64,000 bases of DNA from Liolophura sinensis (lineage: Eukaryota; Mollusca; Polyplacophora; Chitonida; Chitonidae): NCBI RefSeq assembly GCF_032854445.1, contig NC_088302.1, positions 53,908,046-53,972,045 on the forward strand, in the 5' to 3' direction. Both the position numbers and the translations under genes were made by a program. This document shows, piece by piece, positions 12,590 to 48,945 of this stretch (the stretch's first letter is position 1; each line of letters begins with the position of its first letter). Below the pieces are notes generated by a model. It did no database searches. It was given only the letters and a program-made list of their open reading frames with translations, and had not been told where the DNA came from.

Positions 12590-13150
12590 TTAGGGATCGG
12601 CGCACAAACACGATTGGGGCATACACTTACTGGCGCACAAACACGATTGGTGCATACACTTACTGGCACACACATACGATTGGGGCATACACTTACTGGC
12701 ACACACACACGATTGGGCATACACCTACCGGCACACACACACGATTGGGGCATACACTTACTGGCACACAAACACGATTGGGGCATACACTTACTGGCAC
12801 ACAAACACGATTGGGGCATACACTTACTGGCACACACACACGATTGGGGCATACACTTACTGGCACACACACATGATTGGGGCATACACCTACCGGCACA
12901 CACACACGATTGGGGCATACACTTTCTGGCACACAAACACGATTGGGGCATACACTTACTGGAACACACACACGATTGGGGCATACACCTACCGGCACAC
13001 ACACACGATTGGGGCATACACCTACCGGCACACACACACGATTGGGGCATACACTTACTGGCACACACACAATTAGGGTATACACTTACTTGCACACACA
13101 CAATTAGGGTATACACTTACTTGCGCACACTCACAATTGGGACATACACT
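12590..13150. repeat. 32-33-bp minisatellite (copy 1)
   Basis: About 17 units with the core CGATTGGGGCATACACTTAC, joined by CACACACA stretches. The array runs directly into the CA microsatellite, suggesting that the two grew from a shared CA-rich seed. Several frames stay open across it in both strands because stops are rare in the unit. Confidence 0.9.
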
Positions 13151-13154
13151 TACT

Positions 13155-13215
<61 letters not shown>
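13155..13215. repeat. CA microsatellite (copy 1)
   Basis: About 30 uninterrupted CA units. The matching tract in copy 2 (15315-15391) is 16 bp longer, which is the main difference between the two duplication copies. Confidence 0.95.
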
Positions 13216-13569
13216 CTGGGGCATTGTACTTATTGGCACACACACTCGACTAGCGTACACACTTGCAATATTTAATGGCCCAAACACACGATGTGGGTGG
13301 GCCGTGACACATAATAATCTACCCAATGTGGGCCGTATGCAATAAAGACCCTGACACGTTGGACATTCGCCGTGTCTTTGGTCGAACGCTCTGGAGCGGT
13401 GGTTTCTCCTCATACTTTGACGACTTATCCTTTGCTGTGAACAAGTACACACGGAAACTGGAAGGGTATGGTGTACCCAGTCAGTAAAAAGGGATTGTTC
13501 TGACGATAGAAACTTGTGGCCAAGTGCTCCAGTCAGGTTTTATGGAAGCCGACATAATGTATGTAGGTA

Positions 13570-13935
13570 TGTATGTATGTATGGTCGGGGTTTTACGTCA
13601 AGCTCAACAATTTTTCAGTCATATTATGACGAAGTCATTAGGTTTGTGTACATATATTGTGTCTTCTTGTCCACACGAGTCCATGTCGCCAAAGTGCTGC
13701 CCTTACTGAAGTATCAAACCGAAGACACCAGGCATAATACCCCACCCAGCCACATTATACTGACACCGGGACAACCAGTCATATTTCGTTGCTCTAAACT
13801 CTCAGTGTTGAGCGTGAAGCGAAGCAGCAACAAGTACCATTCTTATAGTCTTTGGTATAACCCGACCCGGATTTGATCTCGATTTTCTGACTTCGAGGTG
13901 GACGCTCTAACCCTAAGGCTACCGCAGCGATAAGG
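13570..13935 (-). repeat. Family-B-like SINE, diverged (copy 1)
   Basis: On the minus strand it reads a tRNA-like head (GCGGTAGCCTTAGGGTTAGA, then a B-box-like AGATCAAATCC) and later the 3' block CATAATATGACTGAAAAATTG followed by ACGTAAAACCCC. The layout is that of family B but the sequence is diverged. An identical copy lies about 2176 bp to the right. Confidence 0.6.
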
Positions 13936-14749
13936 AAGACGACAGAGGATATTTCCCTACCTCGCTGTACGGTTCTCTATCAGTTTCATACTTATGTCCA
14001 TATATGTCAACCACATGATAGCCTGTTATTATAACAAATTAAACGTAATTAAAATATAAGGCTCATTTCGTTATCTCTCAGTAACAACTCATGAATGGCT
14101 TTATACACGATGCGTAAGTTCAGTAAAAGCATCTGAATCGGGGGTTGCACGATATACTCGCTCAGTATTAGTTTGTGAATCACTGTATACACGATGTGTT
14201 CGATGTGTAACAGCTTCGTAAAAAGACTGTTCGCTAAGCGCCTGACTCATGTATGGTAATGATCTGCTTCAGGTCACTGAATTGCACTTCATGTCTATGC
14301 AAAAAGTATTACCTGAAAAAAGTTTCAAGGCAAAACTGGCTTTATTTGCACTCGCTTTGTCGAGATAATTACGATACGAAAACTTTCGTAACAATTAGTT
14401 AATTACTTTAGATTTTGCCGACGAAAATGGCATGATGCGAATGGTGAATTATATGATAGGATTGGCATGTTCAAATAATTTACTAATTGTTTTTATCACA
14501 GAAAGAATGGGCCGTTATGTAGTGGTGAAGGATGTTTGTCTTCCACTCCCCAGGACACACAGGTGATTGGTTCAAAAGTGGCATTGGGCAGTGGATTTGT
14601 AGTATTTCCCCTACATTCTCACTATTTGCGGTGGATTGTTGACAATAAGTGGTTCTGAGTAACAATAATCAAATAAATATGTAAATACATAAATAGAACT
14701 GACTGATGAGCAATATATGACTTGCTCTTGGTTCAGTAGACAGGCAGTC

Positions 14750-15310
14750 TTAGGGATCGGCGCACAAACACGATTGGGGCATACACTTACTGGCGCACAA
14801 ACACGATTGGTGCATACACTTACTGGCACACACATACGATTGGGGCATACACTTACTGGCACACACACACGATTGGGCATACACCTACCGGCACACACAC
14901 ACGATTGGGGCATACACTTACTGGCACACAAACACGATTGGGGCATACACTTACTGGCACACAAACACGATTGGGGCATACACTTACTGGCACACACACA
15001 CGATTGGGGCATACACTTACTGGCACACACACATGATTGGGGCATACACCTACCGGCACACACACACGATTGGGGCATACACTTTCTGGCACACAAACAC
15101 GATTGGGGCATACACTTACTGGAACACACACACGATTGGGGCATACACCTACCGGCACACACACACGATTGGGGCATACACCTACCGGCACACACACACG
15201 ATTGGGGCATACACTTACTGGCACACACACAATTAGGGTATACACTTACTTGCACACACACAATTAGGGTATACACTTACTTGCGCACACTCACAATTGG
15301 GACATACACT
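14750..15310. repeat. 32-33-bp minisatellite (copy 2)
   Basis: Same units in the same order as the array at 12590-13150, including its rare variant units. The two arrays were therefore copied as one block rather than expanded separately. Confidence 0.9.
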
Positions 15311-15314
15311 TACT

Positions 15315-15391
<77 letters not shown>
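15315..15391. repeat. CA microsatellite (copy 2)
   Basis: Uninterrupted CA tract, about 38 units, eight units longer than its partner in copy 1. Confidence 0.95.
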
Positions 15392-15745
15392 CTGGGGCAT
15401 TGTACTTATTGGCACACACACTCGACTAGCGTACACACTTGCAATATTTAATGGCCCAAACACACGATGTGGGTGGGCCGTGACACATAATAATCTACCC
15501 AATGTGGGCCGTATGCAATAAAGACCCTGACACGTTGGACATTCGCCGTGTCTTTGGTCGAACGCTCTGGAGCGGTGGTTTCTCCTCATACTTTGACGAC
15601 TTATCCTTTGCTGTGAACAAGTACACACGGAAACTGGAAGGGTATGGTGTACCCAGTCAGTAAAAAGGGATTGTTCTGACGATAGAAACTTGTGGCCAAG
15701 TGCTCCAGTCAGGTTTTATGGAAGCCGACATAATGTATGTAGGTA

Positions 15746-16111
15746 TGTATGTATGTATGGTCGGGGTTTTACGTCAAGCTCAACAATTTTTCAGTCATAT
15801 TATGACGAAGTCATTAGGTTTGTGTACATATATTGTGTCTTCTTGTCCACACGAGTCCATGTCGCCAAAGTGCTGCCCTTACTGAAGTATCAAACCGAAG
15901 ACACCAGGCATAATACCCCACCCAGCCACATTATACTGACACCGGGACAACCAGTCATATTTCGTTGCTCTAAACTCTCAGTGTTGAGCGTGAAGCGAAG
16001 CAGCAACAAGTACCATTCTTATAGTCTTTGGTATAACCCGACCCGGATTTGAGCTCGATTTTCTGACTTCGAGGTGGACGCTCTAACCCTAAGGCTACCG
16101 CAGCGATAAGG
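15746..16111 (-). repeat. Family-B-like SINE, diverged (copy 2)
   Basis: Duplicate of the element at 13570-13935, carried along by the segmental duplication; it differs by one base near the B-box region. Confidence 0.6.
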
Positions 16112-16239
16112 AAGACGACAGAGGATATTTCCCTACCTCGCTGTACGGTTCTCTATCAGTTTCATACTTATGTCCATATATGTCAACCACATGATAGCCT
16201 GTTATTATAACAAATTAAACGTAATTAAAATATAAGGCT

Positions 16240-17287
16240 CATTTGGTTTCGTTATCAAAAGGGCTAGGCTTTATATACATGTATTCAAATATTGTAGAAG
16301 AGAATTAATAAAGTCAAGACATAAAACTGAGCTTTCGGTTTTACGTGTGTGTTTCCGTACACCTGGAACTTCTTTTCTGTGCATATGGACCATTGTAGTG
16401 TGTGTCACTTCATCAGCTCACCATGAGACATTTTAGCTTTTATCGCTGGCTGCATCCACAGATGAACAAGATTAGGGTCACTCTATATTACTGTGTTACT
16501 AATGTATTCCGTAATTATAAATGTATGGTGCATTATCTACCATTGTACCGATTTGAATATTGAAACACGAGAAGGGCATTTTATTCAATTTGTACAAGTG
16601 AACGCTCACCACCACTGAGCCTAGCCTCTAATCTCAAACCCTATCAGCCTGTTGAGAACCGACCCCTGAGACAATTTATGGAAAAAATGTCGAACCATGA
16701 TGAGCCGTGAAATTTTACGCTATTCTCTTCAAAATAGGGCCTACAAGAGGGCTGTGAATGTTTCATTTTGACAACAGTGGTGGACCGTTCACTAAGTCCA
16801 CAACTATGTGCATCCCCCGAAAATGACATCTAATAAATGAAGAGCAGGAAAACTGAAAACTGGGTGGAACTGTTGACTGTGGTTTGTATGCAGGTCTCAT
16901 CCATCATGGCGGCGCCTCGTTTTGACAGAAAATTACCGAATGTGGATTTTCCGCCGTGAAAATCTTCCATAAATTTGACTGGGCTTTGTCGCAGGTAGCT
17001 TTGAGCAGTCGTTGTCATTATTTTGTGGCTATTGTGTCAAGACCATTAATTTCTTTTCATCAAGATAGTTGCTAATTACAATTAGCAGAAATCGAATAAT
17101 AAAGTTAAAAGTTCTATATTCTTCTATTATCCGCTTATTACACTTCAACACTTTCGTGAAATATAATTAACTGTAGAACTATAATGACACAAAATAATTC
17201 AACCAATGGTAAATGTTTCCTATCTAGAACTGTACTGAGGCAATAATGTACTATAATAATGATCTGCATAATATCTTTTGATTTATA
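16240..17287. other. Noncoding stretch, nothing recognised
   Basis: Two minus-strand ORFs of about 60 codons (16644-16829 and 16830-17018) share a short VKF-like motif, but neither shows a domain or convincing splice sites. No RNA gene was seen. Confidence 0.4.
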
Positions 17288-22838: not shown

Positions 22839-25800
22839 TTATCGTTTTTTGCTAACACTGGACTTGGACTTTACAGCCTTTTTTGGCCCTGAGAAAAAAT
22901 TGGTGAACATTTCAGACATGTCTGGCAAATTGTTTCCTCTTGCATTCAACGCAGTCATCTGGGCTTCCATCTCCTGGAAAGGGAGAAAATATCTACTGTC
23001 AACACATGATTAATCAACTGTGAAGTTTCTGCCACTACTGGTAAGCGCCAGGTCAATGAAATTCACAAGCTGTGATTATCATCTGAGAGCAATCATTTGC
23101 CATTGCTGATATAACCTGTTACCTTCACTAAGTACAAAACTGAACGTTCCACAACCCAATAATTCTGTATACAGTAGTTTCATATAACTATTTTGCACTC
23201 CATATTTCTGCATATTATTATTAAAGCCATCCACAGGAGTAATAAAATGCTGAAATATTGTTTTCTGTTAGCTTTCCCATGGAGCTCGGTATCATCACCA
23301 TAACTTTTAGTACAGTTTTGTGGATTCATGTGCTAATAATGATAATCCCCCCAAAAATTCTCGCTCACAGCTGACAAACAGTAACAAAGGGGAGGTAACT
23401 CCATACAGGCTATTTTCCCGCTTAATTGGCAACATTTAAAGCAGCCTTAGCTTCTACATTACAGAAAGGATTAATGTGCAAAGTCAGGATATCAAGTAGC
23501 TATGGATACGATATTATACTCTACTGTTGACGCAAGCTTTTATATACTTTTAGAATTTGTAACTTTGTTAAATGATACTGATAAGCTTACCTTTTTCGTT
23601 TCTGGGTCTGAGGGGTTCATTAGTTTAGGGACCAGCATCACCAAGAACAATGGCAGCACCATCATCATCATCTGACAAGAAAAAACATCCCGAACTAATA
23701 CATATTCTTATGGAGGTCACCGTCACAAGAAGATTATATTTATACTATGGTCATAGTGTAATTACAAGACAACAGGTCTTCACAGCTCAAAGCTAAATGT
23801 GTATTATGTAACATTTCATACTAACCCATATTTGCTCTTTAAACAAAATGTAAGAGACCCCAGATTCTTCTCCAATTCCGAGACCAAACTCCTTACTTAG
23901 ATGTCATCAAGCACAGTACTCTATTTTACTGGCCAATATTCTTACCATAGGGCTAAATAACAGATCCTTCATTCTGAACTGTTCTCTAGCTTGGAAATAG
24001 TTGGCTTTGCCCCGTTCTCTGAACTCCAGCGGGTAAGGCATACTTTTAACAGATGAAGGCTGCAGGTTATTCACACGCCGTGCTCTTATTTTCCCCTTTG
24101 AAGTAATGTCAACTCGTGATGGTTCGAAAACATAGGTAGGATTGGAGACTTCTATGAGGTAAGAACCAGATGGCACATTTACAGAAAAACTGCCATCACT
24201 CCTGTAAGAAGTAAAAGTACAGTTAAAAGTAGAAGAACCAGTGCAAACGATCAGATATCAAGGTTTTTGCAAAGTGCAATTAACGAGTACCTCACTCACA
24301 GTGGGACATCAATAAAGCTACAAGCACATCACTCACACTGGGACATCAATAAAGCTACAAGCACCTCCCCCACACTGGGACATCAATAAAGCTACAAGCA
24401 CCTCACTCACAATGGGACTTCAATAAAGCTACAAGCACCTCACTCACATTGGGACTTCAATAAAGCTACAAGCACCTCACTCACATTGGGACTTCAATAA
24501 AGCTACAAGCACCTCACTCACAATGGGACTTCAATAAAGCTACAAGCACCTCACTCACATTGGGACTTCAATAAAGCTACAAGCACCTCACCCACACTGG
24601 GACATCAATAAAGCTACAAGCACCTCACTCACAATGGGACTTCAATAAAGCTACAAGCACCTCACTCACATTGGGACTTCAATAAAGCTACAAGCACCTC
24701 ACTCACATTGGGACTTCAATAAAGCTACAAGCACCTCACTCACAATGGGGACATCAATAAAGCTACAAGCACCTCGCTCACACTGGGACATCAATAAAGC
24801 TACAAGCACCTCGCTCACACTGGGACATCAATAAAACTACAAGCACCTCACTCACACTGGGACATCAATAAAGCTACAAGTACCTCACTCACACTGGGAC
24901 ATCAATAAAGCTGCATTTGCTTAGCAAATATTACATGAATAAATTATAACATTTAAATATCCACATGTTACAGCAAATGGCATGAATGAAAATAATAAAT
25001 ATCCACATGCTACAACAAATGACATGAATGAAGATGATAAATATCCACGTTACAGCAAATGGTATGAATGAAGATGATAAGATTGTATACCGTAGTTTAC
25101 TGGTTGTCCAGTCTACATAGAGAAAGGCACTTTGACCCTCTATCAGCTACATCTCCTTTATTTATTCATTTATTTGATTGTGGTTTTATGCTGTACAAAA
25201 GAATATTTCAATTACACAATTTCACCAGCATTATAGTTTGATAAAACCGAGCAGAGCCTGGGGGGAAACTCACAAACCATCCTCAGGTTGCTTGCAGACT
25301 TTCCCACATATGACTGGAAAGGAAGCCAAAATGAGGTGGACAAAGTCAAAGTGGTTACATTAGTGAGAGGCTCCTGTGTCATTGTGCTTTGCTGTCAGAT
25401 CATGAAAATTACAGCTTATGAAATGACATCAATATCGGTACAAATGACCAGGTTCAATACAGAGTGGTCTGAGTATGAAATAACCAGATACCTTTCATTC
25501 CAAAGCCTTTAGCCTTTGTCTTTCCATTACTATGGGGAAATAGGCTCCTTGCTGTTAAATGTTTATCTGTTACTTGATCGTTGTTTAACACTCTACTCAA
25601 AAATTTTTCACAGTGGCAGTCAGATTTGAAAAATGGACTGCCCTGTGTAAACAACCTTTGGCAATTCAGACAAACTTTTCTACATATGACATACACAAAT
25701 AGACAACATCCTGGTGGAAGACAATGAATATTTCAGTTAGGACTGGGCAAACCAAATGGCCAAATGTGATTTTTTGGCACCAACATGTTTCTTTAAAACT

Positions 25801-29109: not shown

Positions 29110-30130
29110 GATATAATTTGTTCAGGAGGGAATGTGTGGCTTTGTCTGCCAGTGGTATCGTCTGTAGACTGTTCAGCAGAGAATGTGCGATTTTTCTGCC
29201 AGTGGTATCGTCTGTAGACTGTTCAGCAGAGAATGTGTATTTTTCTGACAGTGGTATCATCTGTAGACTGTTCAGCAGAGAATGTGTGATTTTTTCTGCA
29301 GTGGTATCGTCTGTAGACTGTTCAGCAGAGAATGTGTGATTTTGCTGCCAGTGGTATCATCTGTAGACTGTTCAGCAGAGAATGTGTGCTTTGTCTTCAA
29401 GTGGTATCGTCTGTAGACTGTTCAGCAGAGAATGTGTGATTTTTCTGCCAATGGTATCGTCTATAGACTGTTCAGCAGAGACTGTTCAGCAGAGAATGTG
29501 TGATTTTTTCTGCCAGTGGTATCGTCTGTAGACTGTTCAGCAGAGAATGTGTGATTTTTCTGCCAGTGGTATCGTCTGTAGACTGTTCAGCAGAGAATGT
29601 GTGATTTTTTCTGCCAGTGGTATTGTCTATAGACTGTTCAGCAGAGAATGTGTGATTTTTCTGACAGTGGTATCGCCTGTAGACTGTTCAGCAGAGAATG
29701 TGTGATTTTGCTGCCAGTGGTATCGCCTGTAGGACTGTTCAGCAGAGAATGTGTGATTTTTTTCTGCCAGTGGTATCGTCTATAAACTGTTCAGCAGAGA
29801 ATGTGTGATTTTTTCTGCCAGTGGTATCGCATGTAGACTGTTCAGCAGAGAATGTGTGATTTTTGCTGCGAGTAGTATCATCTGTAGACTTTTCAGCAGA
29901 GAATGTGTTATTTTTCTGCCAGTGGTATCATCTGTAGACTGTTCAGCAGAGAATGTGTTATTTTCTGCAGTGGTATTGTCTGTAGACTGTTCAGCAGAGA
30001 ATGTGTGATTTTACTGCCAGTGGTATCGCCTGTAGACTGTTCAGCAGAGAATGTGTGATTTTGCTGCCAGTGGTATCGTCTGTAGACTGTTCAGCAGAGA
30101 ATGTGTGCTTTATCTGTTAATGATATAACC
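29110..30130. repeat. Minisatellite, ~50-bp unit, subfamily 1
   Basis: About 20 units with the core CTGTAGACTGTTCAGCAGAG followed by AATGTGTGATTTTTCTGCCAGTGGTATCG. Units vary mainly in the T run and in the CGT/CAT triplet. It merges to the right into subfamily 2, with which it shares GGTATC.TCTGTAGACTGTT. Confidence 0.92.
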
Positions 30131-32505
30131 TGTAAACTGTTCAGCAGAGAGTGTATACTTTGTCTGCCATTCTTATTGTCTGTAGACTTGGCAGCAGGGT
30201 GTGTGCTTTGTACACCAGTGGTATAATCTGTAGACTGTTGACATCTGAGAATTTGTGCTTTGTCTGCTAATGGCGTCATTTGTAGTCTTTCGGCAGTGGA
30301 GTGTGCTTGTGTAGATTGTAACAACATAATGTGTACTTTACTGCCGGTGGTATCATCGGTAGACTGTTAACAGCAGAAGGTGTGTGCTTTTAATATATGG
30401 CAATGGTATCATCTGTAGACTGTGGGATTTGTCAGCCAATGATAGATAATAGCTTGTAGACTGTTAACAACAGAGAATGTAATATTTGTCTGTCAGTGTT
30501 TATCATCTGCAGATTGTTCAGCAGAGAATGTGTGCTTTACTGCAGGTGGTATAATCTGCAGACTGTTAACAACAGAGTGTGTGCTTTGTACACCAATGGT
30601 ATCACCTGTAGACTGTCAGCAGCAGAAAGTGTGTGATTTGTCTGCCAGTGGTATTATCTGTAGACTGTTAACAACAGAGGAGAGTGTGTTTTTTTGTATA
30701 CATGGTATCATCTGTAGACTGTTAACAACAGAGAGAGTGTGTTTTTTTTGTCTACCAGTAGTATCATCTGTAGACTGTTAACAACAGAGAGAGTGTGTTT
30801 TTTTGTCTACCAGTAGTATCATCTGTAGACTGTTAACAACAGAGAGAGTGTGTTTTTTTTTGTATACATGGTATCATCTGTAGACTGTTAACAACAGAGA
30901 GAGTGTGTTTTTTTGCATACATGGTATCATCTGTAGACTGTTAACAACAGAGAGAGTGTGTTTTTTTTGTCTACCAGTAGTATAATCTGTAGACTGTTAA
31001 CAACAGAGAGAGTGTGTTTTTTTGTATACATGGTATCATATGTAGACTGTTAACAACAGAGAGAGTGTGTTTTTTTGTCTACCAGTGGTATCATCTGTAG
31101 ACTGTTAACAACAGAGAGAGTGTGTTTTTTTGTATACATGGTATCATCTGTAGACTGGTAACAACAGAGAGAGTGTGTTTTTTTGTATACATGGTATCAT
31201 CTGTAGACTGTTAACAACAGAGAGAGTGTGTTTTTTTGTCTACCAGTGGTATCATCTGTAGACTGTTAACAACAGAGAGAGTGTGTTTTTTTTGTATACA
31301 TGGTATCATATGTAGACTGTTAACAACAGAGAGCGTGTGTTTTTTTGTATACATGGTATCATCTGTAGACTGTTAACAACAGAGAGAGTGTGTTTTTTTG
31401 TCTACCAGTGGTATCATCTGTAGACTGTTAACAACAGAGAGAGTGTGTTTTTTTGTATACATGGTATCATCTGTAGACTGTTAACAACAGAGAGAGTGTG
31501 TTTTTTTGTCTACATGGTATCATCTGTAGACTGTTAACAACAGAGAGAGTGTGTTTTTTTGTCTACCAGTAGTATCATCTGTAGACTGTTAACAACAGAG
31601 AGCGTGTGTTTCTTTCGTATACATGGTATCATCTGTAGACTGTTAACAACAGAGAGCGTGTGTTTTTTTGTATACATGGTATCATATGTAGACTGTTAAC
31701 AACAGAGAGAGTGTGTTTTTTTGTCTACCAGTGGTATCATCTGTAGACTGTTAACAACAGAGAGAGTGTGTTTTTTTGTATACATGGTATCATCTGTAGA
31801 CTGTTAACAACAGAGAGAGTGTGTTTTTTTGTATACATGGTATCATCTGTAGACTGTTAACAACAGAGAGAGTGTGTTTTTTTGTCTACCAGTGGTATCA
31901 TCTGTAGACTGTTAACAACAGAGAGAGTGTGTTTTTTTGTATACATGGTATCATCTGTAGACTGTTAACAACAGAGAGAGTGTGTTTTTTTGTCTACATG
32001 GTATCATCTGTAGACTGTTAACAACAGAGAGAGTGTGTTTTTTTGTCTACCAGTAGTATCATCTGTAGACTGTTAACAACAGAGAGAGTGTGTTTTTTTG
32101 TCTACATGGTATCATCTGTAGACTGTTAACAACAGAGAGAGTGTGTTTTTTTGTCTACCAGTAGTATCATCTGTAGACTGTTAACAACAGAGAGAGGGTT
32201 TTTTTTTTGTATACATGGTATCATCTGTAGACTGTTAACAACAGAGAGAGTGTGTTTTTTTTATATACATGGTATCGTCTGTAGACTGTTAACAACAGAG
32301 AGAGTGTGTTTTTTTTTGTCTACCAGTAGTATCATCTGTAGACTGTTAACAACAGAGAGCGTGTGTTTCTTTTGTATACATGGTATCATCTGTAGACTGT
32401 TAACAACAGAGAGAGTGTGTTTTTTTGTCTACCAGTGGTATCATCTGTAGACTGTTAACAACAGAGAGAGTGTGTTTTTTTTGTGTACATAGTATCATCT
32501 GTAGA
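30131..32505. repeat. Minisatellite, 53-56-bp units, subfamily 2
   Basis: The first 550 bp (to about 30680) hold diverged transitional units. The rest holds about 34 highly uniform units with CTGTAGACTGTTAACAACAG and GAGAGTGTGTTTTTTT. Two linkers alternate, GTATACATGG and GTCTACCAGTGG, and the second recurs roughly every third unit, giving a higher-order period near 160 bp. Confidence 0.92.
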
Positions 32506-32792
32506 CTTCAGAAAGTTAGAAGATTTTGCTCAATCTCTTTCAAAGTTTGAAGTTAAAGTTTTAATTGTTTGACACATGGAATTAATGTACAAATGCTATT
32601 TTCAGGCTTTCCAATCTGAGGTCCTGTGTATGTGCAATTTGCAAGTCCTGTGTATTTGAGTAGAATGCGTGTTTACATGTATTTTCCAATGACCCAATAC
32701 AAATGTAGCAATTCTACATACACCTTCATAGTAAATTTAATTACCCTGACACCTAGGCATCTCTGTGTATCTTTAATTTCATCATGAATGTT

Positions 32793-34523: not shown

Positions 34524-37500
34524 ATGGCCAAGCTTGGAATCACCTCCGAGAAGCAGAAATGGTGGAACGTCGACAAAACTCTTCTTCCTGTGAAGATGTT
34601 CTACTTTTTTTTCCTTGCAGGTGAGTTTCTCTTCATGTGTTTTGTTTGTTTGTTATGTGTTTTTTGTGCCTCTGTATGTTGGCAAGCAGTTACATTTCAA
34701 TGTCTGAGTCATGCATGTGAAAAAGCATTCGTGCACAAATGTTGCAGATGGAATTCAGGCTTTGCACATGCATTCAGCAATTTTCTGCAGAAAGCAGTAG
34801 TTGTACATGTGATAGTATCAGGTTGTTTCCTTTGATGTCCACATGATGATTACTCATTTATAGAGATTTTCCTTTTATTCATGTTATCAGTAAAATGCTA
34901 TCTTGTGTTACAAGACTTGCACTTGTCTTTGTTAATATTGCATCCATGGTGGTATGGAAATCTGATTGCCTAGGGAAAACCATGTGCAGGGTTAATAAGA
35001 AACGAATCCATGATACGTTTATTCGTGATACATGTTGTATGTTTTACATGTGTATTATGTGATACATGTTGTATGTTTTACATGTGTATTATGTGATACA
35101 TGTTGTATGTTTTACATGTGTATTATGTGATACATGCACATGTATGTGTACAGTGTGTATTATATGTACCCTAACCCTAATTCTTCAACCTTTTCAACTG
35201 TCTAAGTAAGCAATATTTTGGAACATTCAGGGAGAAGTATGGGGTGTAGAGAAGTAGTGTGCACAGTTTTAGGAAGCTGCCATCATTAATAACACGAACA
35301 AATCATTTTTAGCATCATTTTCGTAATAATCAGTGCATAAATTCCCCTGAAAAAGTGCATTAGTGGTTGAGCTAGATTTACAGTACACATGTAGGCCTAT
35401 GTAATGTTGTACATGAAGTACACGTGTAAAATTTATATTTTTGTGACTTGAGTGAACATTACTTGTTTAATTTTAAGTGTTGCTTCACCACCGGCCCGGA
35501 TAGCACAGTTGGTAGAGTGTCCGCTTCAGGACCGGTAGATCCAGGATCAATCCTTGATTGAGTCACACCTAAGACTCTCTATATAAAACATAGAGGTGAA
35601 ACAATAGCCGTTGTTCAGACTTTATGCGCACATGCTTTACCACTACATAAGTATATTTTTAAATTTAATACCTTTTCATTATTAACTAGGTTAATAAATT
35701 CCATGAATCCATTGTAGAATTTGATGACTAATGATATGAATGAATGTATACGGGCATTTCAGAAGATAATCATCCTACATGTACAAGTGTAGCTGCAGTA
35801 TATGGTATGGGTTAATACTTATTTGTGTAAAAACCCAACATGACAACCAAAATCAGTATCTACATGTAGTTGTTTAATTAATGTCAAAGCACACATTTTA
35901 ATAATAAATTGAAAGTTCAGTTCATGTAATATTTAATCTTCTAAGCAATTTATAAACAAAACATGTTCTATTTATGAATACAAAGTCTATATATTTTGAT
36001 GATAACTGTATTGAGAATCAACCTTAACTTATTGTATGTAATTTGGAGATGCCACATTATATCCTTGATGATCATGCATGTTTTTAGACCATCACCTACA
36101 TTTACTGTATGACCGTAGTATCCATGGTCAGGAATAGGAAAGGGGCATGTATGCATGGTTGTAAGTGTCAGGAATAGGAAAGGGGCATGTATGCTTGGTT
36201 GTAAGTGTCAGGAATAGGAAAGGGGCATGTATGCGTGGTTGTAAGTGTCAGGAATAGGAAAGGGGGCATGTATGCGTGGTTGTAAGTGTCAGGAATAGGA
36301 AAGGGGGCATGTATGTGTGGTTATAGGTGTCAGAATAGGAAAGGGGCATGTATGCATGGTTGTAAGTGTCAGGAATAGGAAAGGAGCCATGTATGCATGG
36401 TTAAAAGGGTCAGGAATAGGAAAGGAGGCATGTATGCGTGGTTATGGGTGTCAGGAATAGGAAAGGAGGCATGTATGCATGGTTATAGGGTCAGGGAATA
36501 GGAAAGGGGCATGTATGTGTGGTTATAGGGTCAGAATAGGAAAGGGGGCATGTATGTGTGGTTATAGAGTTAAGGATAGGAAAGGAGGCATGTATGTGTG
36601 GTTGTAGGTGTCAGGAATAGGAAAGGAGGCATGTATGTGTGGTTGTAGGTGTCAGGAATAGGAAAGGAGGCATGTATGCGTGGTTATAGGGTCAGGAATA
36701 GGAAAGGGGGCATGTATGTGTGGTTATAGGGTCAGGAATAGGAAAGGGGGCATGTATGTGTGGTTATAGGGTCAGGAATAGGAAAGGGGGCATGTATGTG
36801 TGGTTATAGAGTTAAGGATAGGAAAGGAGGCATGTATGTGTGGTTATAGAGTTAAGGATAGGAAAGGAGGCATGTATGTGTGGTTGTAGGTGTCAGGAAT
36901 AGGAAAGGAGGCATGTATGCGTGGTTATAGGGTCAGGAATAGGAAAGGGGGCATGTATGTGTGGTTATAGGGTCAGGAAATAGGAAAGGGGGCATGTATG
37001 TGTGGTTATAGAGTTAAGGATAGGGAAAGGAGGCATGTATGTGTGGTTATAGAGTTAAGGATAGGAAAGGAGGCATGTATGTGTGGTTGTAGGTGTCAGG
37101 AATAGGAAAGGAGGCATGTATGCGTGGTTATAGAGTTAAGGATAGGAAAGGAGGCATGTATGCTTGGTTGTAAGTGTCAGGAATAGGAAAGGGGGCATGT
37201 ATGCGTGGTTGTAAGTGTCAGGATAGGAAAGGGGGCATGTATGCGTGGTTGTAAGTGTCAGGAATAGGAAAGGGGGCATCTATGTGTGGTTATAGGTGTC
37301 AGGAATAGGAAAGGGGCATGTATGCATGGTTGTAAGTGTCAGGAATAGGAAAGGAGCCATGTATGCATGGTTAAAAGGGTCAGGAATAGGAAAGGAGGCA
37401 TGTATGCGTGGTTATGGGTGTCAGGAATAGGAAAGGAGGCATGTATGCATGGTTATAGGGTCAGGAATAGGAAAGGGGGCATGTATGTGTGGTTATAGGG

Positions 37501-40500
37501 TCAGGAATAGGAAAGGGGGCATGTATGTGTGGTTATAAGAGTTAAGGATAGGAAAGGAGGCATGTATGTGTGGTTGTAGGTGTCAGGAATAGGAAAGGAG
37601 GCATGTATGTGTGGTTGTAGGTGTCAGGAATAGGAAAGGAGGCATGTATGCGTGGTTATAGGGTCAGGAATAGGAAAGGGGGCATGTATGTGTGGTTATA
37701 GGGTCAGGAATAGGAAAGGGGGCATGTATGTGTGGTTATAGGGTCAGGAATAGGAAAGGGGGCATGTATGTGTGGTTATAGAGTTAAGGATAGGAAAGGA
37801 GGCATGTATGTGTGGTTATAGAGTTAAGGATAGGAAAGGAGGCATGTATGTGTGGTTGTAGGTGTCAGGAATAGGAAAGGAGGCATGTATGCGTGGTTAT
37901 AGGGTCAGGAATAGGAAAGGGGGCATGTATGTGTGGTTATAGGGTCAGGAATAGGAAAGGGGGCATGTATGTGTGGTTATAGAGTTAAGGATAGGAAAGG
38001 AGGCATGTATGTGTGGTTATAGAGTTAAGGATAGGAAAGAAGGCATGTATGTGTGGTTGTAGGTGTCAGGAATAGGAAAGGAGGCATGTATGCGTGGTTA
38101 TAGGGTCAGGAATAGGAAAAGGAGGCATGTATGCATGGTTATAGGGTCAGAAATAGGAAAGGAGGCATGTATGCATGGTTATAGGGGTCAGGAAATAGGA
38201 AAGGAGGCATGTATGCGTGGTTATAGGGATCAGGCATAGGAAAGGGGGCATGTATGTGTGGTTATAGAGTTAAGGATAGGAAAGGAGGCATGTATGTGTG
38301 GTTGTAGGTGTCAGGAATAGGAAAGGAGGCATGTATGCATGGTTATAAGGGTCAGGAATAGGAAAGGAGGCATGTATGTGTGGTTATAGGGGTCAGGCAT
38401 ACAAAAGGAGGCATGTATTCATGATAATAGGGGTCAGGAATAGGAAAGAAGGCATGTATGCGTGGTTGTAGGGTCAGGAATAGGAAAGGAGGCATGTATG
38501 TGTGGTTGTAGGGTCAGGAATAGGAAAGGAGGCATGTATGTGTGGTTGTAGGGTCAGGAATAGGAAAGAAGGCATGTATGCGTGGTTGTAGGGTCAGGAA
38601 TAGGAAAGGAGGCATGTATGTGTGGTTATAGGGATCAGGCATAGGAAAGGAGGCATGTATGTGTGGCTATAGATGTCAGGAATAGGAAAGGAGGCATGTA
38701 TGCATGGTTATAAGGGTCAGGAATAGGAAAGGAGGCATGTATGTGTGGTTATAGGGGTCAGGCATACAAAAGGAGGCATGTATTCATGATAATAGGGGTC
38801 AGGAATAGGAAAGAAGGCATGTATGCGTGGTTGTAGGGTCAGGAATAGGAAAGGAGGCATGTATGTGTGGTTGTAGGGTCAGGAATAGGAAAGGAGGCAT
38901 GTATGTGTGGTTGTAGGGTCAGGAATAGGAAAGAAGGCATGTATGCGTGGTTGTAGGGTCAGGAATAGGAAAGGAGGCATGTATGTGTGGTTATAGGGAT
39001 CAGGCATAGGAAAGGAGGCATGTATGTGTGGCTATAGATGTCAGAATAGGAAAGGAGGCATGTATGTGTGGTTGTAGGGTCAGGAATAGGAAAGGAGGCA
39101 TGTATGTGTGGTTATAGGGGTCAGGCATAGGAAAGGAGGCTTGTATGTGTGGCTATAGATGTCAGGAATAGGAGAGGAGGCATGTATGTGTGGTTATAGG
39201 GATCAGGCATAGGAAAGGAGGCATGTATGTGTGGCTATAGATGTCAGGAATAGGAGAGGAGGCATGTATGTGTGGTTATAAGTATTAGAAGACCAACAGT
39301 TTCATTTAAGCCAACACACATGTTCACAAACCTTTCACACATTCATCTTTATATGTTCAGTTTTGTTGCTGTGTATTTACCTTGTAGAAGTGCAGTATTA
39401 TCTACCAAATTGCTAATGCTTCTTAGTCTATCTCTCTCTCTTTAATATTTTAGCACGCCTGTACAAAGTATGTATTGAGCTGATGTTTTGAATTCATCCA
39501 TCTCCTACAGGAGAGCTCTGTAGTAACCTTGCATCCAAATTCAAGTTCACATCCTCTCAAAAACTACAGCTGAGCCACCCAAGACATTATGTCAAGCCTC
39601 TATTTTAAGATTTGATTATAACATTTCACGGAGAAGAATCCTGTTTGGAAGATACTGTAGTGAGCTCAAGTGGTTCTGTTTTGTGTTTTGACAGGGGTAG
39701 GAACACTGTTGCCATTCATCACATTATTCATGAAACAGCTGGGCCTGTCCTCTGGGGAGACTGGGTTATCTATGGTGTGATGCCCTTTGTGGGATTCTTA
39801 GTGAGGCCTGCCCTGGGGGCTGTAGCTGACAAGCTTCATCAGCACAAACTGGTCCTGATGGTCGTGTGTTTACTCACTGGCGTCTTCTACCTTGTCTGCT
39901 GCTGGTTCCAGCTAACATCAATGAGGATAGCACCAAGATATTCACCAGTATTCACTGTAACAATCAAGACTCCTACATCAGTGACTGTAACACTGGCCCG
40001 TCATGCCCCATGTCCCTAACCCATTATGGTAACATGACCATGGCAAATGGCAATTCATCTGCCACCAGTATGCATGGTCGGAAATGTTCAGCGGTGTGTA
40101 CGTTTGCAGTGCCTGGTGCCTACTCTACCCGCGTCTGCTTTACCTCCACTGTTGGCTCCTTCCCGGACAACTGCCTCAACATTTGGGTGAGTTCCACTGA
40201 GGAGTCGACGGTGAACTTCAGACTTCTTGATGCTGGCGCTGTTATCCACAAGGAGATTCTCCATGACCGCTACAAACTGAAAAAACCAAATGTCGTGAGC
40301 ACCGAGATTATGATCTGAAGAATCTGTCTTTCAGGGGAGAACCGTTCTGGAGGATGGTGTGTGACTCGGAGACAATCCTCAACTGTGATATGTCCTGCAC
40401 CACCACCCATGCACTGGAATGTAACCGTGAGACCACTGCCTATGGACAAACATTCTGGATATTTTTCTTTGTGTTTCTCTTGGCGAATATCGCCTTGGCG

Positions 40501-43500
40501 CCCACCCTAAGCCTGAATGATGCTATTGGCTATGATATTCTTGGGGACAAGAGTCATCGTTGGGAAAACAGAGACTCGGGGAACCATAGGCTTTGCATGT
40601 TTTGCTATTGCATCAACTCTCATAATGGATACACTGAGTAAATCCAATAAAACCATCGACTACAACATATCATTCTACATCTTGGAGGCCTGATGTTATT
40701 CTGTGTGATTGTGGCAGGTTTTCTAAAGGTGAACCCTGATTTGGTGTGTAATAAGATGTTCGTGATGTTGGCAAACTTGTCACCCAGCTAAGGATAGCGT
40801 CCTCCTCCTGACCATTCTCATGTTTGGTGTTTACTGTGGTGTCATAGAGGCCTTTCTTTTCTGGTATCTCCTTGACCTTCAACTCAAGTATTCGGGCCAT
40901 GTAAATGGTAATGCCATCATCATGGGTTTGTGTCTAATGTTGAACTGTGTGGCTGAAGCCCCCTTTCTGTTCATGTCTGGACACATCATTAAAGAATAGG
41001 TCAGTTGTCTTGTATCTACCTGGCATTTGCTGCATATGCCATTCGTTTCATTGGCTACTCCTTCCTGGTGAACCCCTGGCATATCCTCTTTCTTGAGCCC
41101 CTCCATGGTTTGACCTTTGGCCTCCTTTGGGCAGCAGCCACCTCTTACACCAACAAGATATCCCCTCCAGGAACCTCCGGGACCACACAGGGTCTGATCA
41201 GTGGTCTTCATTTTGGCTTTGGTAAGTTGCAGGAATGCGAACTAAAAGATTGTCTTTATCATTACATGTAATTACTCTCCTCAGCTACTAGTATTTAGAG
41301 CTAAATACGTCTTAACGTCTTAATGAAGAAACCGCAAATATCTTGTGTTCTTTTTAACATATGGACAGCAAAGTTATGGTTTGCCACAGAGGTTCATGTG
41401 ACAAGTGTTGCAAATCTTGACTGGTGCGTATAGGTTTGCATGTATTTACATGTGTTTTGTAATGCTTGTCTGATTTGATCACTGTCAAACATCTGGTAGC
41501 CTGTTATGTAGTAGACCAAAGGGCATACGGCCCCAGACCTGTTATTGTGGTTACTGTATGTTACCTCATCAGTTGTGTAATGAAGATAAAACACTGGAAT
41601 GAATGTTGATCATCTGCTTACATGATGACCCTCTTGTTTGCCTGTTAGTGTTTTGTTCAGTATGTTGTGGAGGTTTCAAGGGACAATTCATAGACTTTCA
41701 TTAGCATGAGAATTAATATCAGTTTTGTGAATAGAAGTGTTATTTATTAGAAGGCAGTTTGGCAGTCAGACATAATGTACCGCTATGTAACATGATGCCA
41801 AATAGGCTACGTAAGTTGAAACTTTTTTGTTGGATGTCGACAAGCTGTCTTTGAAAAACCATGGCGTCTGAAGCTGTCAGTTTAGCTCAGATCCTATGAC
41901 AAATAAAAGGATGATTGAGGATATCCATGCATAAGTGAAATTTGTAAGGCAAATATGTACATCTGTACTTGAACACTAATTAAATAAATAGGCAAATAAA
42001 TATTTTACACAGTTGAACAAACAGCCCACTGAGTTAACCTTCAGTACACACTGGATACAGAAAATGTGTCGAGTACTACCATACACCAAATAAATCAATT
42101 AAAACTATGCACCTAATATATCAAGTACTACTATACACCAAATATATCGAGCACTACAATCGAGTACTACTATACACCAAATATGTTGAGTAATACTATA
42201 TACCAAATACATCGAGTACTGCTGTACACCAAATATATCAAGTACTACTATACACCAAATATATCAAGTACTACAATACACCAAATATATCAAGTACTAC
42301 TATACACAAAATATATCAAGTACTATTATACACAGAATATATTGAGTACTACTATACACCAAATATATCAAGTACTACAATCGAGTACTACTATACACCA
42401 AATATATCAAGTAATATTATATACCAAATATATCAAGTACTACTATACACCAAATATATCAAGTACTACTATACACCAAATATATCAAGTACTACTATAC
42501 ACAAAATATATCAAGTACTACTATACACAGAATATATCGAGTACTGCTGTACACCAAATATATCAAGTACTACTATGCACCAAATATATCAAGTACTACT
42601 ATACACCAAATATATCAAGTACTACTATACACAGAATGTATCGAGTACTGCTGTACACCAAATATATCAAGTACTACTATGCACCAAATATATCAAGTAT
42701 TACTATACACCAAATATATCAAGTACTACTATACACAAAATATATCAAGTACTACTATACACAAAATATATCAAGTACTACTATACACAGAATATATCGA
42801 GTACTGCTGTACACCAAATATATCAAGTACTACTATGCACCAAATATATCAAGTACTACTATACACAAAATATATCAAGTACTACTATACACAGAATATA
42901 TCGAGTACTGCTGTACACCAAATATATCAAGTACTACTATGCACCAAATATATCAAGTATTACTATACACCAAATATATCAAGTACTACTATACACCAAA
43001 TATATCAAGTACTACAATACACAAAATATATCAAGTACTACTATACACAGAATATATCGAGTACTGCTGTACACCAAATATATCAAGTACTACTATACAC
43101 TGAATATATCGAGTACTGCTGTACACCAAATATATCAAGTACTACTATACACAAAATATATCAAGTACAACTACACACCAAATAAGTCCTTTCTGATACT
43201 GTTTTATTATCTTGTATGAGAGTGTCATGGACTGGAACATGTAGTGTTCTGCCTAATGACCCAAACTGATTAAGATGCAAAACAAGCATTTTGTGTCTCG
43301 CTACGGCACTGTACAAATATTTAGGAATTTTATAAAGATTATTTTTGAGCTTTTCTTTGTTATTCTTTATAGTTTAGTACAAACGAAGATGTAGATTGAA
43401 AATTTGTAGATATCTGACACAGGAAAAGCTTTAATATGTTGATTCTACAACCTGGGCTACATATGATCTACAAATTTCAAGAGCCATTGAGTTTGAAAAA

Positions 43501-46500
43501 ATGTATGTGAGCCTTGCACAAAAAGGTGCAGGAATCGGGAATGTATTTGTACTTTCTTGGGCAGTACATTTCACTAAGCACAGAATCCTAGTCTATATGA
43601 TCTGAACTGACCAACCACCATGAGTGCCAAGCAGAACAGAATTGTACACCACTTTTCACCTCTATTGTTTGGAGAGATTGGACAGTGCGCAAAACGAAGC
43701 ATTTGCAGGCAACAGTAGCTCATTGTGTAAAAAACGTAGTATTGACCTGAACATATGTGACATCCCACTCGGGAAAATGAGTTGTTATTTGCGTCGCAAT
43801 AGATATTAATCTGTTGCTTTACAAATTCGACTGGCAGTCACTAAAGAGCTCTGTTTTAGATAAGACATGCACTTTGTCCTGATGGACCTGAGGAATCACT
43901 TGCCTTTCACCAATACGGTACATGTACTTTGTCTTGAGGCACTCTGGGAATCATTTGCCATTCACCAATACGATACATGCACTTTGTCTTGAGGCACTCT
44001 GGGAATCATTTGCCATTCACCAATACGGTACATGCACTTTGTCTTGAGGCACTCTGGGAATCATTTGCCATTCACCAATACGGTACATGCACTTTGTCCT
44101 GAGGCACTCTGGGAATCATTTGCCATTCACCAATACGATACATGCACTTTGTCTTGAGGCACTCTGGGAATCATTTGCCATTCACCAATACGGTACATGC
44201 ACTTTGTCTTGAGGCACTCTGGGAATCATTTGCCTTTCATCAATACGGTACATGCACTTTGTCTTGAGGCACTCTGGGAATCATTTGCCATTCACCAATA
44301 CGGTACATGCACTTTGTCCTGAGGCACTCTTGGAATCATTTGCCTTTCACCAATACGGTACATGCACTTTGTCTTGAGGCACTCTTGGAATCATTTGCCA
44401 TTCACCAATACGGTACATGCACTTTGTCTTGAGGCACTCTGGTAATCATTTGCCTTTCACCAATACGGTACATGCACTTTGTCCTGAGGCACTCTGGTAA
44501 TCATTTGCCTTTCACCAATACGATACATGCACTTTGTCCTGAGGCACTCTGGGAATCATTTGCCTGTCACCAATACGGTACATGCACTTTGTGCTGAGGC
44601 ACTCTGGATATTCCCAACAATATCACGTATATAGGATAATGCAATGTGATACTGTAGATGGTACACTTCACAATGTGTAGAGGTCATAAGACGTGGAATG
44701 GGGTTTTGAATTTACCATTGGCTACGACAATTTGTTTAGGTATATGTTCTCAAACATTAATAGTTTACTCCTTAAAGGGAAGTTTTGCGTAAGTGTACAT
44801 GTACGTGTCGAAGCCAGCTATTCAAAGCACCGGGCCAAACTGTCCCAGGGCTCCTGTGGCCAAGGTGGTGAGTATGTCAGTGCGACGCAGTGACACAGGA
44901 GCTTCTCACCAATGCGGTGACTGAGTTAAAATCCAGCTCATGCTGGCTTCCTCTCTGGCTGTACCTGTGAAGGTCTGCCAATAACCTGCAACGATCGTGG
45001 GTTTTTCCTGGGCTCTGCCCTGTTTCTTCTCAGCACAATGCTGGCTGCTGTCGTATAATTGAAATATTCTTGAGTACGGCCAAAACACCAATCAAATAAA
45101 TAAATAAATACATAAATCAAAACAGACCCCAAAAGTACTTTCATGTATTTACTTTTTTTTGTTGCTGAGCCTTACATATAATTTGAGGTAGGATAAAATA
45201 CGGTGGCCTTCTTGGAACACATCTGATATGACCCCCTTGGAATCATTCCAGTAAGCTCTAATGCTTGTTAAGCTCTCACAGTAATGTGAAAAAACTTTGG
45301 GAAATATAGTCTAAAAAGAAAAAATTCATGGTGAGAATAAGTATTTAAAAAGTTGATTTATAGTTGCCATTTTACATTACATTAGAGCGCAATAGTTCAG
45401 AAGTATCATGACATTTCATTTGACCTTGACATTTTACTTTTATATAAATAATTTATTCTTGTGCTTGGCATTTGTACAGATATCATGCTTACGTGTATTT
45501 TGTTAGACTCGCTGTAATCTTCTAACATCATGATACATGAGTTTACCCTTGATTGGCCAACTGATATGAATACATCCCATACAGTGCCTCCTTATCAACC
45601 GACTGTACGGTATCATATTAGCCTGCTGGTGCGGAGGTTACATGCGGAATAGGATTTCAGGTTCTGTTTTCTGGGCTGTTGTCCGGGATAAGATAATCAC
45701 AGCCTCTTGAGTGTGGCTCGCGATTCTAGTAGTCCATCAATCTCACTGACAGATAAGTGGAATGATCATACCACTGTCTTCTATCCACCAATTTGTTCTG
45801 TGCCAAATTCTTGAGATAATATACAGTCTGTCAGACTGGTTTTCCCAACACGTCACATTATCAAGGCAAGATGAGGATGGCATACTGGTAAAAGAATAGA
45901 ATGAATCATCAAATGGCCAGATTAGGGAGCTTTATTCTTTCTCAGTAGGATCAGTGAATAGCTCAGTCGTAGTTTAGGTTCGCTATTGCATGAGATGACA
46001 GCACAGCTGAAATCTCCCTGAAGCCAAGTGGTATAAACTTACTATGTCAGTGGAAGGCGCACTGGGAAAAGCCTTATTTCAAAGCTCATCTTTAACAGAC
46101 AAACAGTGGCATCGGCTTTTCGCAATTTGACCTTGTTTACACCGGGCACTTTCTTTTAATTCACCCATAGGACTGACTGTCATCCCCGAGGCCTGGTCCC
46201 ATTGCGTTGTTTTTGTTTTAATGTGATTGTGTGTTAAATATGATGACAACACAGCATTTTGAATATTTCTAGATCAGTGACGTCTAATAAAATGCAATTA
46301 ACATCACTGCACTTTTTAAAACCTATTGCTGCTTAAGCCATGGTTCTAGGAAGTGTGCAAATTGCTACTATTTATGCATTTACATGAACAGTTAGAATAA
46401 ACCCCTGACTGAGGTAAACAATAATCAAAATCAAATTAAGTGAAATCTTTCTTATATCATATCTCATGTGCATCTGCTGTCTTGTTTTCATCTGTCAAGG

Positions 46501-48945
46501 TAAAGGTATCGGTAGCTTGCTGACAGGGTTCCTATTTGACATTCTCGGTGCCCGCTGGTCCTTCCGTGTCTACGGTATATCTGCCCTCGTCTTCCTCGTC
46601 CTCAGTGTCATTCTACACTTAACCTGCCTGAAGGTGGAGCCTGCGGAGGAAAGAGATAACATCATCGTCAAAGCTCCTCACACGAATTTAAAACCTCACG
46701 GTATGTGTTTACCACTCGGCGAAATACGCCTCGCAGTCATCCACCCCACGTCAGAGACTTGGGAAGGATAACACTACACAGGCATTTACATTACTCATTC
46801 GTTTAACGGAGTATGCCCTTATACTTGATAAAGCTCATGCCCTTTTGGAATAATCAGGTAGGTCCGATAAGGAAGGGAATTAACAGTATTATCGAAATGC
46901 AAACATTTTAGTCTCCCAGTATGATAATACTGCTGCAGAATAGTTTTAAAGTCTTTGTTGACATTGTCCAATAGGTGTGGAATGATATGACAACACGTAT
47001 ACAGTTGCTCAGATACCGGACCGTGAGAGGGTTAAAAGTCATACCCGACCAGATAGAGACGTATGGAAACACGAAAGGCCATAAACTGCTGTACAGTGCA
47101 TTAAATACCCATTGGCCATAAGCTCTTTTGCAACAGATAGTGTGTTTACAAGATGATGAAGGCAGACGCCTAACGACTTTGAAACACTTAAAAGTACGTG
47201 AAATGTTAATATAAAACGAAGAATATGATTTTAAGGAAAATGAAGAAAGATGTGTCGTTTTTAGGAATATTTTATATTTCTTAATATTTTTCGTCAATGG
47301 TCGGAAGTATACGGAAATGACATCATTGATGAGCATATTGGTCACGCGAGACCAGCTTAGTACCCCCAACTCGTGCACTTCTCGGCAGCAAAGTTGTTTT
47401 GACAGTTAACAGTTGACGTCACCACAAAGGCTGCTTAATTTCCGAACTGATCGCTGTGGCCTTAGGAAAACTAGTTTAAAACCAGCCTTTTACTCCGTAT
47501 TAAGAAAAAAGCAAACAAACAGGCGTTCCCTGTATCTTTTTTAGGTCAATGGTTGCCTTCTGTTGTTGGTCCCCTTCCTTAATAATATGAATTTACAACA
47601 TATAAATGAAGCCTAGCCTTGTATACTAAAACAAGCAACTACCAGCTTCTCGCCATTCAATCGCTGCGCTGTACGATGTCTTCTCTGAAAGGACTTCTCT
47701 GAATTAGAAATTTTGTTTCGATCAGTTCGTTCTCATTGGCCAAGACCGTAAGTGGGAAGGTCTGTCACCAACCTGCGGATTCCCCCGGGCTCTGCCCGGT
47801 TTCCACCCACCATAATGCTGGCCGCCTTCGTATAAGTGAAATATTTTTGAGTACGGCGTAAAACACCAATGAAATAAATAAATCATTGGCCGAGAGATAC
47901 CAGTCCAGAAGCCTAGTGAGAACTGCAGGGTTATTAGGCCTATGTGCTCTGTCCAATGACTTGTTATGTAGGACAGGACGTCATTTTATGAACTTCCGCC
48001 CACATTAACCTCAGCTTAAACATCAGCCACAGATATCAGGTAAGTTGCCTGACTTTCTATCTTGCGGAAATTAAAGCCAAACGGTGAATGTTTGTAGTTA
48101 AGATAAAATTCACTCATTAGACTCGATATCTTTTTTTGAAAGAGCCCAACATTTAAGAACAAGATTTTTTTTATTTACAATGAAAGCTATAGGTATTATT
48201 TACAAATGATCAAAAACAAGCTTTTCACAACATGGCTGAAATATTGCAGGCATGGCGTTAAACCATAATCATTAATTCATTTAAGAAAACCCCAGTAATT
48301 TAGATGATGGAATTTTCACAGTTTACTTGGCATTAGTTCAGTCTTGATTCACAGTCTTGAGTCTTGAGAAAATAAAGCCTAAAACCATTAAAGTTTGTTA
48401 ACTGTTGTCTGTGAACATTAAATAAACATTGACATAATAGATCAAGACTAGACCGCGTTTTGATGAGTATACAAGTATTTTGAATGTTAGTACATTAATG
48501 CAGTTCGCTGCTTATGACTACCGCCGGCATTATTGCACCTATATTTAATGGTTTATTTAAGCATATTGGCAGTTGTGTTCAGTCGTTGCCCACATAGCAA
48601 TTAATAAATAACAACATACCCATTCCGATATCCCCCCCCCCCGGATATGTGCCTGATGGTTTCCATGTGTTTATCCTATGCGAATCTCGACCCCGATACA
48701 TTCGTGCATGTGACATTCATTTAAAAACTGCATACATGTTTTTTTTTTTAATCAACAAAAGATATAAAATGTTTATAATTATAGATCCCGATCAGGAGGA
48801 TGAAGCTGCTGCTGGTGATTATCTCCTTGGAAACCATTCAGGCACAGATGAAGTGGAAGTTAGGGCGACAGCTGACGGCGAGGATGTGGAGGAAATGACA
48901 ACAAACTCGGAGGGAGTCGCCCCACCGGAATCTGACCGTCTGTAA
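34524..48945 (+). CDS. MFSD6: MFSD6-type major facilitator transporter
   Basis: Polytopic membrane protein of the major facilitator superfamily; the substrate of this family is not firmly known. Exons: 34524-34620, 39695-41221, 46500-46700 and 48785-48945; every junction is GT/AG in phase 1. The ATG at 34524 has a good context (AAACATGGCC). Family-typical segments in order: KWWNVDKTLLPVKMFYFFF (exon 1), LLPFITLFMKQLGL, IYGVMPFVGFLVRPALGA, a long Cys- and Asn-rich extracellular loop with NMT and NSS glycosylation sites, DAIGYDILGD, EAFLFWYLLDL, LVNPWHILFLEPLHGLTF, ATSYTNKISPPGT (end of exon 2), and GKGIGSLLTGFLFDILGARW (exon 3). Exon 4 is an acidic tail. Exon 2 is broken by about nine frame changes, each fixed by one added base (near 39769, 39895, 40305, 40563, 40577, 40686, 40760, 40806 and 40999). 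With these the length is 664 aa, against about 790 in human MFSD6. An assignment to an MFSD6-like paralogue cannot be excluded. Confidence 0.88.
35030..35135. repeat. 34-bp tandem repeat, three copies
   Basis: Three near-identical copies of a unit containing GATACATGTTGTATGTTTTA followed by CATGTGTATTATGT, in MFSD6 intron 1. Confidence 0.85.
35490..35600 (+). repeat. SINE family B, 5' part only
   Basis: Carries the tRNA-like head (GGCCCGGATAGCACAGTTGG, then TAGAGTGTCCGCTTC), a B-box-like GGATCAATCC and the GAGTCACACCTAAGACT marker. The usual body is missing, but a TGAAACAATAGCCGTTGTTC scrap may be a remnant. It lies in MFSD6 intron 1. Confidence 0.75.
36140..39285. repeat. ~38-40-bp minisatellite, 3.1 kb, in MFSD6 intron 1
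   Basis: About 80 units of the form GTCAGGAATAGGAAAGGAGG plus CATGTATGTGTGGTTATAGG. Larger blocks are themselves repeated: the stretch around 36310-36900 reappears around 37275-37870 (offset about 970 bp), and the stretch around 38370-38660 reappears around 38735-39025 (offset about 360 bp). The array ends about 0.4 kb before exon 2. Confidence 0.93.
42090..43190. repeat. 26-bp minisatellite in MFSD6 intron 2
   Basis: About 42 units of AATATATCAAGTACTACTAT plus ACACCA. As 26 is not a multiple of three, each plus-strand frame cycles through the unit and reads a 26-residue repeat. All three frames are stop-poor, giving overlapping ORFs of up to 306 codons. These are judged by-products of the array. 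Confidence 0.92.
43860..44610. repeat. 55-bp minisatellite in MFSD6 intron 2
   Basis: About 13 units with CATGCACTTTGTCTTGAGGC and ACTCTGGGAATCATTTGCC followed by TTCACCAATACGGTA. The copies are more than 90 percent alike by eye. Confidence 0.92.
44850..45115 (+). repeat. Full-length SINE family A, diverged
   Basis: Head region CTCCTGTGGCCAAGGTGGTG, the CTCACCAATGCGGTGACTGA block, the CCAGCTCATGCTGGCTTCCT block and the CAATCAAATAAATAAATAAA tail. It lies in MFSD6 intron 2. Confidence 0.82.
45116..46499. other. End of MFSD6 intron 2, no feature recognised
   Basis: About 1.4 kb of ordinary intron sequence. No repeat, exon or RNA gene stands out until the acceptor TCTGTCAAG before exon 3. Confidence 0.45.
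46701..48784. other. MFSD6 intron 3
   Basis: Intron of about 2.1 kb holding one truncated SINE (47746-47882). A possible tail remnant of another SINE lies near 48233-48290 (GGCATGGCGTTAAACCATAA). A C run lies near 48631-48642. No coding sequence was recognised. Confidence 0.5.
47746..47882 (+). repeat. SINE family A, 5'-truncated, with target-site duplication
   Basis: Only the 3' half is present, starting at CCGTAAGTGGGAAGGTCTG and ending with CAATGAAATAAATAAA. A 13-bp direct repeat with one mismatch (TCATTGGCCRAGA) flanks it at 47733-47745 and 47883-47895, so the truncation happened during insertion, as with LINE-driven retrotransposition. Confidence 0.88.

Follow-up and report, generated by a model that had tools for sequence, protein, structure and literature searches.

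The locus considered here raises the question whether a conserved gene has lost bases by mutation or only in its assembled sequence. It lies in the chiton Liolophura sinensis, within a 64,000-nucleotide stretch of contig NC_088302.1 (RefSeq assembly GCF_032854445.1, positions 53,908,046 to 53,972,045), which we refer to as the window and from whose first letter positions are counted. The gene has four exons, encodes an MFSD6-like transporter of the major facilitator type and is otherwise an ordinary animal membrane-transporter gene, differing from other MFSD6 and MFSD6-like genes in that the assembly shows its exon 2 out of frame. The frame breaks are most likely local sequence error and no new biology. 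If they are errors, an annotation pipeline could split a conserved transporter or call it a pseudogene, and exon 2 would be falsely counted as a gene loss. If the losses are real, a record of decay made of deletions only would be unusual and worth dating.

Apart from exon 2, the gene is well formed. All three introns are of the GT-AG type and open frames run through exons 1, 3 and 4, as the first-pass annotation of this DNA had described. We assembled a read-through from the four spliced exons by placing an X at each frame step. With nine bases added, it comprises 664 residues and a stop, exactly the 665 codons counted previously, and no in-frame stop is found, with 502 codons counted as readable. 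The read-through matches PF12832 (MFS_1_like) with 244 bits over profile positions 4–373 of 373, against a curated cut-off of 25.2 bits, which bears out the earlier statement that the protein is preserved between the steps. The open pieces of exon 2 match this profile in the order of the profile but in differing frames. Out of six such pieces, three match PF12832 (one far above the cut-off, one barely above and one below it), one matches a related family below the cut-off of the latter, and the remaining two have no relevant match. On its own, the last open piece reaches 69 bits on PF12832.

The name MFSD6 for this branch of transporters is the one we assume to be in use, and orthology to vertebrate MFSD6 is putative. 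About 180 residues separate frame step 2 from the next profile-matched segment of the read-through. For human MFSD6, an extended extracellular loop joining membrane helices 3 and 4 is described (PMC5627054). The chiton protein resembles MFSD6 and MFSD6-like transporters in its match to the whole PF12832 profile and in a long loop after the presumed helix 3; it is shorter, at 664 residues versus the 791 given for human MFSD6 in the same source. The solved structures of YegT and LacY gave only weak matches, which do not help to place the frame-step sites. A 76-residue piece used as a query found no relatives among viral contigs, and our literature search joining MFSD6 and mollusc returned nothing.

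Table 1. Exons of the MFSD6-like gene, frame steps within exon 2 and the tandem array preceding it (positions in the window; numbers in brackets give the frame before and after each step)
Feature	Position	Strand	Remarks
Exon 1	34524..34620	+	ATG to donor GTGAGT; open frame
Minisatellite, 3.2 kb	36126..39282	+	intron 1; ends about 410 bp before exon 2; local error probe
Exon 2	39695..41221	+	bulk of the transporter domain; frame changes nine times, always toward one missing base
Frame step 1 (1>0)	39695..39780	+	stop-bounded interval; best placement near 39766
Frame step 2 (0>2)	39830..40019	+	stop-bounded; near 39891-39897 by L002 and joint profile; two events (39876 and 39889) by L004 alone
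Frame step 3 (2>1)	40267..40318	+	lies in a variable loop; could be -1 or +2 in size
Frame step 4 (1>0)	40536..40641	+	placed near 40543-40566
Frame step 5 (0>2)	40517..40589	+	placed near 40578
Frame step 6 (2>1)	40651..40693	+	placed near 40682-40685
Frame step 7 (1>0)	40755..40791	+	with step 8 could be a single two-base loss
Frame step 8 (0>2)	40766..40811	+	with step 7 could be a single two-base loss
Frame step 9 (2>1)	40993..40999	+	tightest interval, stop-defined
Exon 3	46500..46700	+	end of the transporter domain; open; donor GTATGT; sub-threshold MFS_1 match
Exon 4	48785..48945	+	tail and stop codon; open frame

The path through exon 2 can be traced from stop codons (Table 1). The stop map of 39650-41300 leaves the frame order 1>0>2>1>0>2>1>0>2>1, i.e., nine steps in the direction of base loss. 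Starting from the spliced phase, a stop-free passage takes at least seven shifts when both directions are allowed, nine with -1 shifts only and 12 with +1 shifts only. The lowest number over the three starting frames is six. By the same measure, 250 windows of equal length drawn from both strands of the same 64 kb, a few of them overlapping exon 2, have a median of 18 and a 1% point of eight; one tandem-repeat window also needs six. By stops alone, two pairs of steps could each be a single +1 shift. When scored against PF12832 (263-residue second part), one +1 shift in place of the pair 40561/40578 costs 14.9 bits and in place of the pair 40762/40800 costs 5.0 bits; two -1 steps are therefore favoured at both pairs.

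Direction and size of the events were further examined against relatives from the same genome (609 Mb, 632 contigs). Two paralogues, L002 (533 residues) and L004 (511 residues), both on contig C8, have this large exon uninterrupted in a single frame, and its acceptor is of the same phase as that of exon 2. In a frameshift-aware alignment with equal penalties for losses and gains (10, 12, 15 and 20), exon 2 differs from L002 by exactly nine events, all of them -1, when the penalty is 10 or 12. At penalties 15 and 20, eight and seven events are called, respectively, with some pairs merging into -2. Against L004, -1 events also dominate, with five or six of them at penalties from 10 to 15. In the same range, step 2 is called as a -2 followed by a +1, and a single +1 replaces the pair near 40786 at every penalty used; a further +1/-2 pair appears near step 3 at penalty 10. 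In control alignments of L002 and L004 with each other, run both ways, no event is called at penalty 12 or 15, and at 10 each direction yields three. A joint profile of L002 and L004 yields eight or nine events, all of them losses except step 3, in the variable loop, which is called +2. Adding L003 and L001 to the profile brings further mixed events into this loop when penalties are low, and with all four paralogues the profile loses the first half of exon 2 at penalties of 10 to 15; our reading of the events is drawn mainly from L002, L004 and their joint profile.

Judged by these alignments, exon 2 contains eight or nine events. The frame path is firm, and so is the direction outside the loop, with the size class uncertain for step 3 and the pair 7/8. 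The first-pass annotation had listed nine frame changes, each the loss of one base. The approximate number and the direction agree with the order of the stop map and with the nine -1 events against L002. Its assertion that all events are of single-base size and that there are no gains is borne out by L002 and is less secure at step 3 (-1 or +2), at the pair 7/8 and for L004 alone, which gives some other event types. Around eight of the nine sites, the alignment with L002 and L004 is gapless, and small frame-restoring introns are ruled out for this reason.

Other members of the family were inspected as well. The genome contains 19 matches to PF12832, and 10 of these hold at least one stop, which may reflect introns or breaks. 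In seven 10-kb stretches, five of which hold other family matches, tblastn found no adjacent pieces in different frames. Matches to the next exon lie about 1.4 kb after the large exon of L004 (L015, 6980-7090) and about 1.2 kb after that of L002 (L016, 7115-7300); thus the exon layout seems common within the family.

Direction-neutral alignment to paralogues of the same genome, together with tandem arrays used as an error meter, provides a cheap way, in which no reads are required, of telling assembly-wide error from a local one. From 53 array rows we chose ten tandem arrays in the window, together 10.9 kb long; they contain 20 low-frequency one-base deletions and 18 insertions, whereas the rate of exon 2 would add 55.6 deletions. 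Long open frames elsewhere in the assembly point the same way. For 7tm_1, 105 of the 150 matches listed (counted by hand) are open over nearly the whole 260-position profile, i.e., start at position 4 or before, end at 258 or after and contain no stop; 147 of 1078 candidates were scored, best first. Of the 49 HSP70 matches, the top five span the full length with an open frame. Both lists rank high-scoring, hence intact, matches first, a bias that could hardly explain this openness: at the rate of exon 2, approximately 1% of 780-base stretches would stay unbroken. Other open exons in the window, encoding EMC7 and a fibronectin type III domain, were found through being open and therefore count little as evidence of quality. 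Assembly-wide error at the rate of exon 2 is ruled out by the ten arrays taken together, HSP70 and 7tm_1, which show no similar density of breaks, and any error must therefore be local. A DNA search of the 609-Mb assembly for a second copy or haplotig of exon 2, of a kind that can miss repeats, returned one match, the window itself.

We consider a local consensus failure in an intact MFSD6-like gene to be the best explanation, with a probability of about 0.75. The sequence of exon 2 would then be wrong at about nine places and the consensus poor over a short stretch of about 39.7-41.0 kb, possibly because few reads, or reads of a single haplotype, were usable for polishing. Reads over exon 2 would then be expected to restore one open frame. 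Error is favoured over decay because the losses run in one direction, the fit to the paralogues is gapless around eight of the nine sites, no stop is present, and the splice sites and exons 1, 3 and 4 are intact. The 244-bit match to the whole profile and the lack of a second copy in the DNA search speak for it as well. The first-pass annotation preferred error on similar grounds; these stand. The link it made to base runs is not above chance, and the assembly is not generally so poor. Indel consensus errors described for long-read assemblies are likewise short and frame-breaking and are sometimes limited to poorly polished stretches (PMC8081667); the events in exon 2, at about 6 per kb, are denser than the average of Q30-35 given there for unpolished assemblies. 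Nearby allelic variants in a collapsed assembly are reported to cause indel errors (PMC8445201). In five rows reported for bacterial nanopore assemblies, deletions and insertions number 1708/900, 263/36, 559/187, 98/28 and 124/71 (PMC12007338), corresponding to a deletion share of 0.64 to 0.88. By our own arithmetic, nine losses out of nine have a probability of 0.02 to 0.32 under these shares.

Several observations weigh against local error. The sites had been described as lying mostly in or beside short runs; four of the seven closely placed ones touch a homopolymer of three or more bases, with 2.6 expected (P 0.24); steps 2 and 3 were omitted from this count because their placement is less close. 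The exon 2 sites show no enrichment in base runs above chance, in contrast to the deletion errors reported in PMC12007338. The minisatellite just upstream has four low-frequency one-base deletions and five insertions, versus 13.3 deletions expected at the rate of exon 2 (P 0.003). Two arrays 0.9 to 3.4 kb past exon 2 have two versus 5.2 and one versus 4.7 expected deletions, differences that are not significant (P 0.11 and 0.052). With flanking arrays so poor in deletions, the poor stretch must be narrow. The good long open frames elsewhere in the assembly lower the prior for a cluster of errors. Among the more distant arrays, the one at 29479-30267 is compatible with the deletion rate of exon 2 (P 0.61).

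The main rival, unlikely on balance, is a young unitary pseudogene in which single bases were lost by mutation and the transporter is no longer made. Good open frames elsewhere and the clean array before exon 2 make a real local change plausible, and the family has other members, as the 19 genome matches indicate. Like unitary pseudogenes, the locus has a broken frame in a multi-exon gene that retains its introns; it differs from them in having no insertion relative to L002, no in-frame stop, and undamaged start and splice sites. Under neutral decay, with deletion and size shares that we assumed, nine one-base deletions out of nine have a probability of about 2e-6 to 6e-3. Possible signs of mixed damage are step 3, which may be a +2, and the pair 7/8, which may be one -2 or, by L004 alone, one +1. 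Conserved positions are kept at 81 of 141 in exon 2, 81 of 136 in L002 and 81 of 142 in L004; exon 2 is thus as well preserved as its intact paralogues, which speaks for error, though in a test of low power. In a simulation with 85 random substitutions, 16% of the decays remained without a stop and about eight of 79 matches were lost; therefore, both the absence of stops and the preserved sites are weakly informative. That the losses are real and stem from a local process removing single bases only, with no insertions or visible substitution decay, in a very recent loss of a constrained transporter, we regard as very improbable. A collapsed mix of two diverged alleles, one of them broken, would make some steps real in one haplotype and others consensus errors. 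Allele mixing is a reported source of indel errors in a collapsed assembly (PMC8445201), but no second copy turned up in the assembly for comparison and, without reads, no direct sign of two alleles was seen over exon 2. This reading is a remote one.

Least credible of all is a functional gene decoded through repeated -1 ribosomal frameshifting. The direction of all nine steps matches -1 slippage, but neither the seven closely placed sites nor the stop-bounded intervals of steps 2 and 3 contain a canonical slippery heptamer (pattern X XXY YYZ) that is in the incoming frame. A heptamer at 40280 is out of frame for step 3, and another at 40562 is out of frame for step 4; the latter falls in frame only for step 5, within the broad interval of that step. 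Programmed -1 frameshifting is rejected for want of fitting heptamers at the placed sites; moreover, paralogues that share this exon read through it without any shift, and we know of no precedent for nine ribosomal frameshifts within one exon. The frequent frameshifting described for Euplotes ciliates is +1, the opposite direction (PMC4759687, PMC10235951).

Other features of the window and genome deserve brief mention. Large minisatellites lie before and within the MFSD6-like gene (30547-32507, 36126-39282, 42159-43184 and 43865-44607), and the plus strand is strongly G-rich around 36-38 kb (GC skew 0.71). One of the HSP70 matches (L022, C1:28756494-28757417) adjoins a stretch of N, probably masked or a gap, that makes up 1504 of the 3924 bases of the locus; its reported open frame is 42745 aa. 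A head-to-tail duplication of about 2.16 kb (11914-14073 and 14074-16248) is 99.2% identical, with two mismatches and one gap where the length of an AC repeat differs; its origin may be a genuine recent event or an assembly artefact. On the minus strand, 23910-24257 is an open exon for ER membrane complex subunit 7 (EMC7), with 88.5 bits. Two further open exons on the minus strand, at 2887-3243 and 5964-6389, possibly belong to one TRIM-like gene; they carry a fibronectin type III domain (26.6 bits) and a match to B-box that stays under the cut-off.

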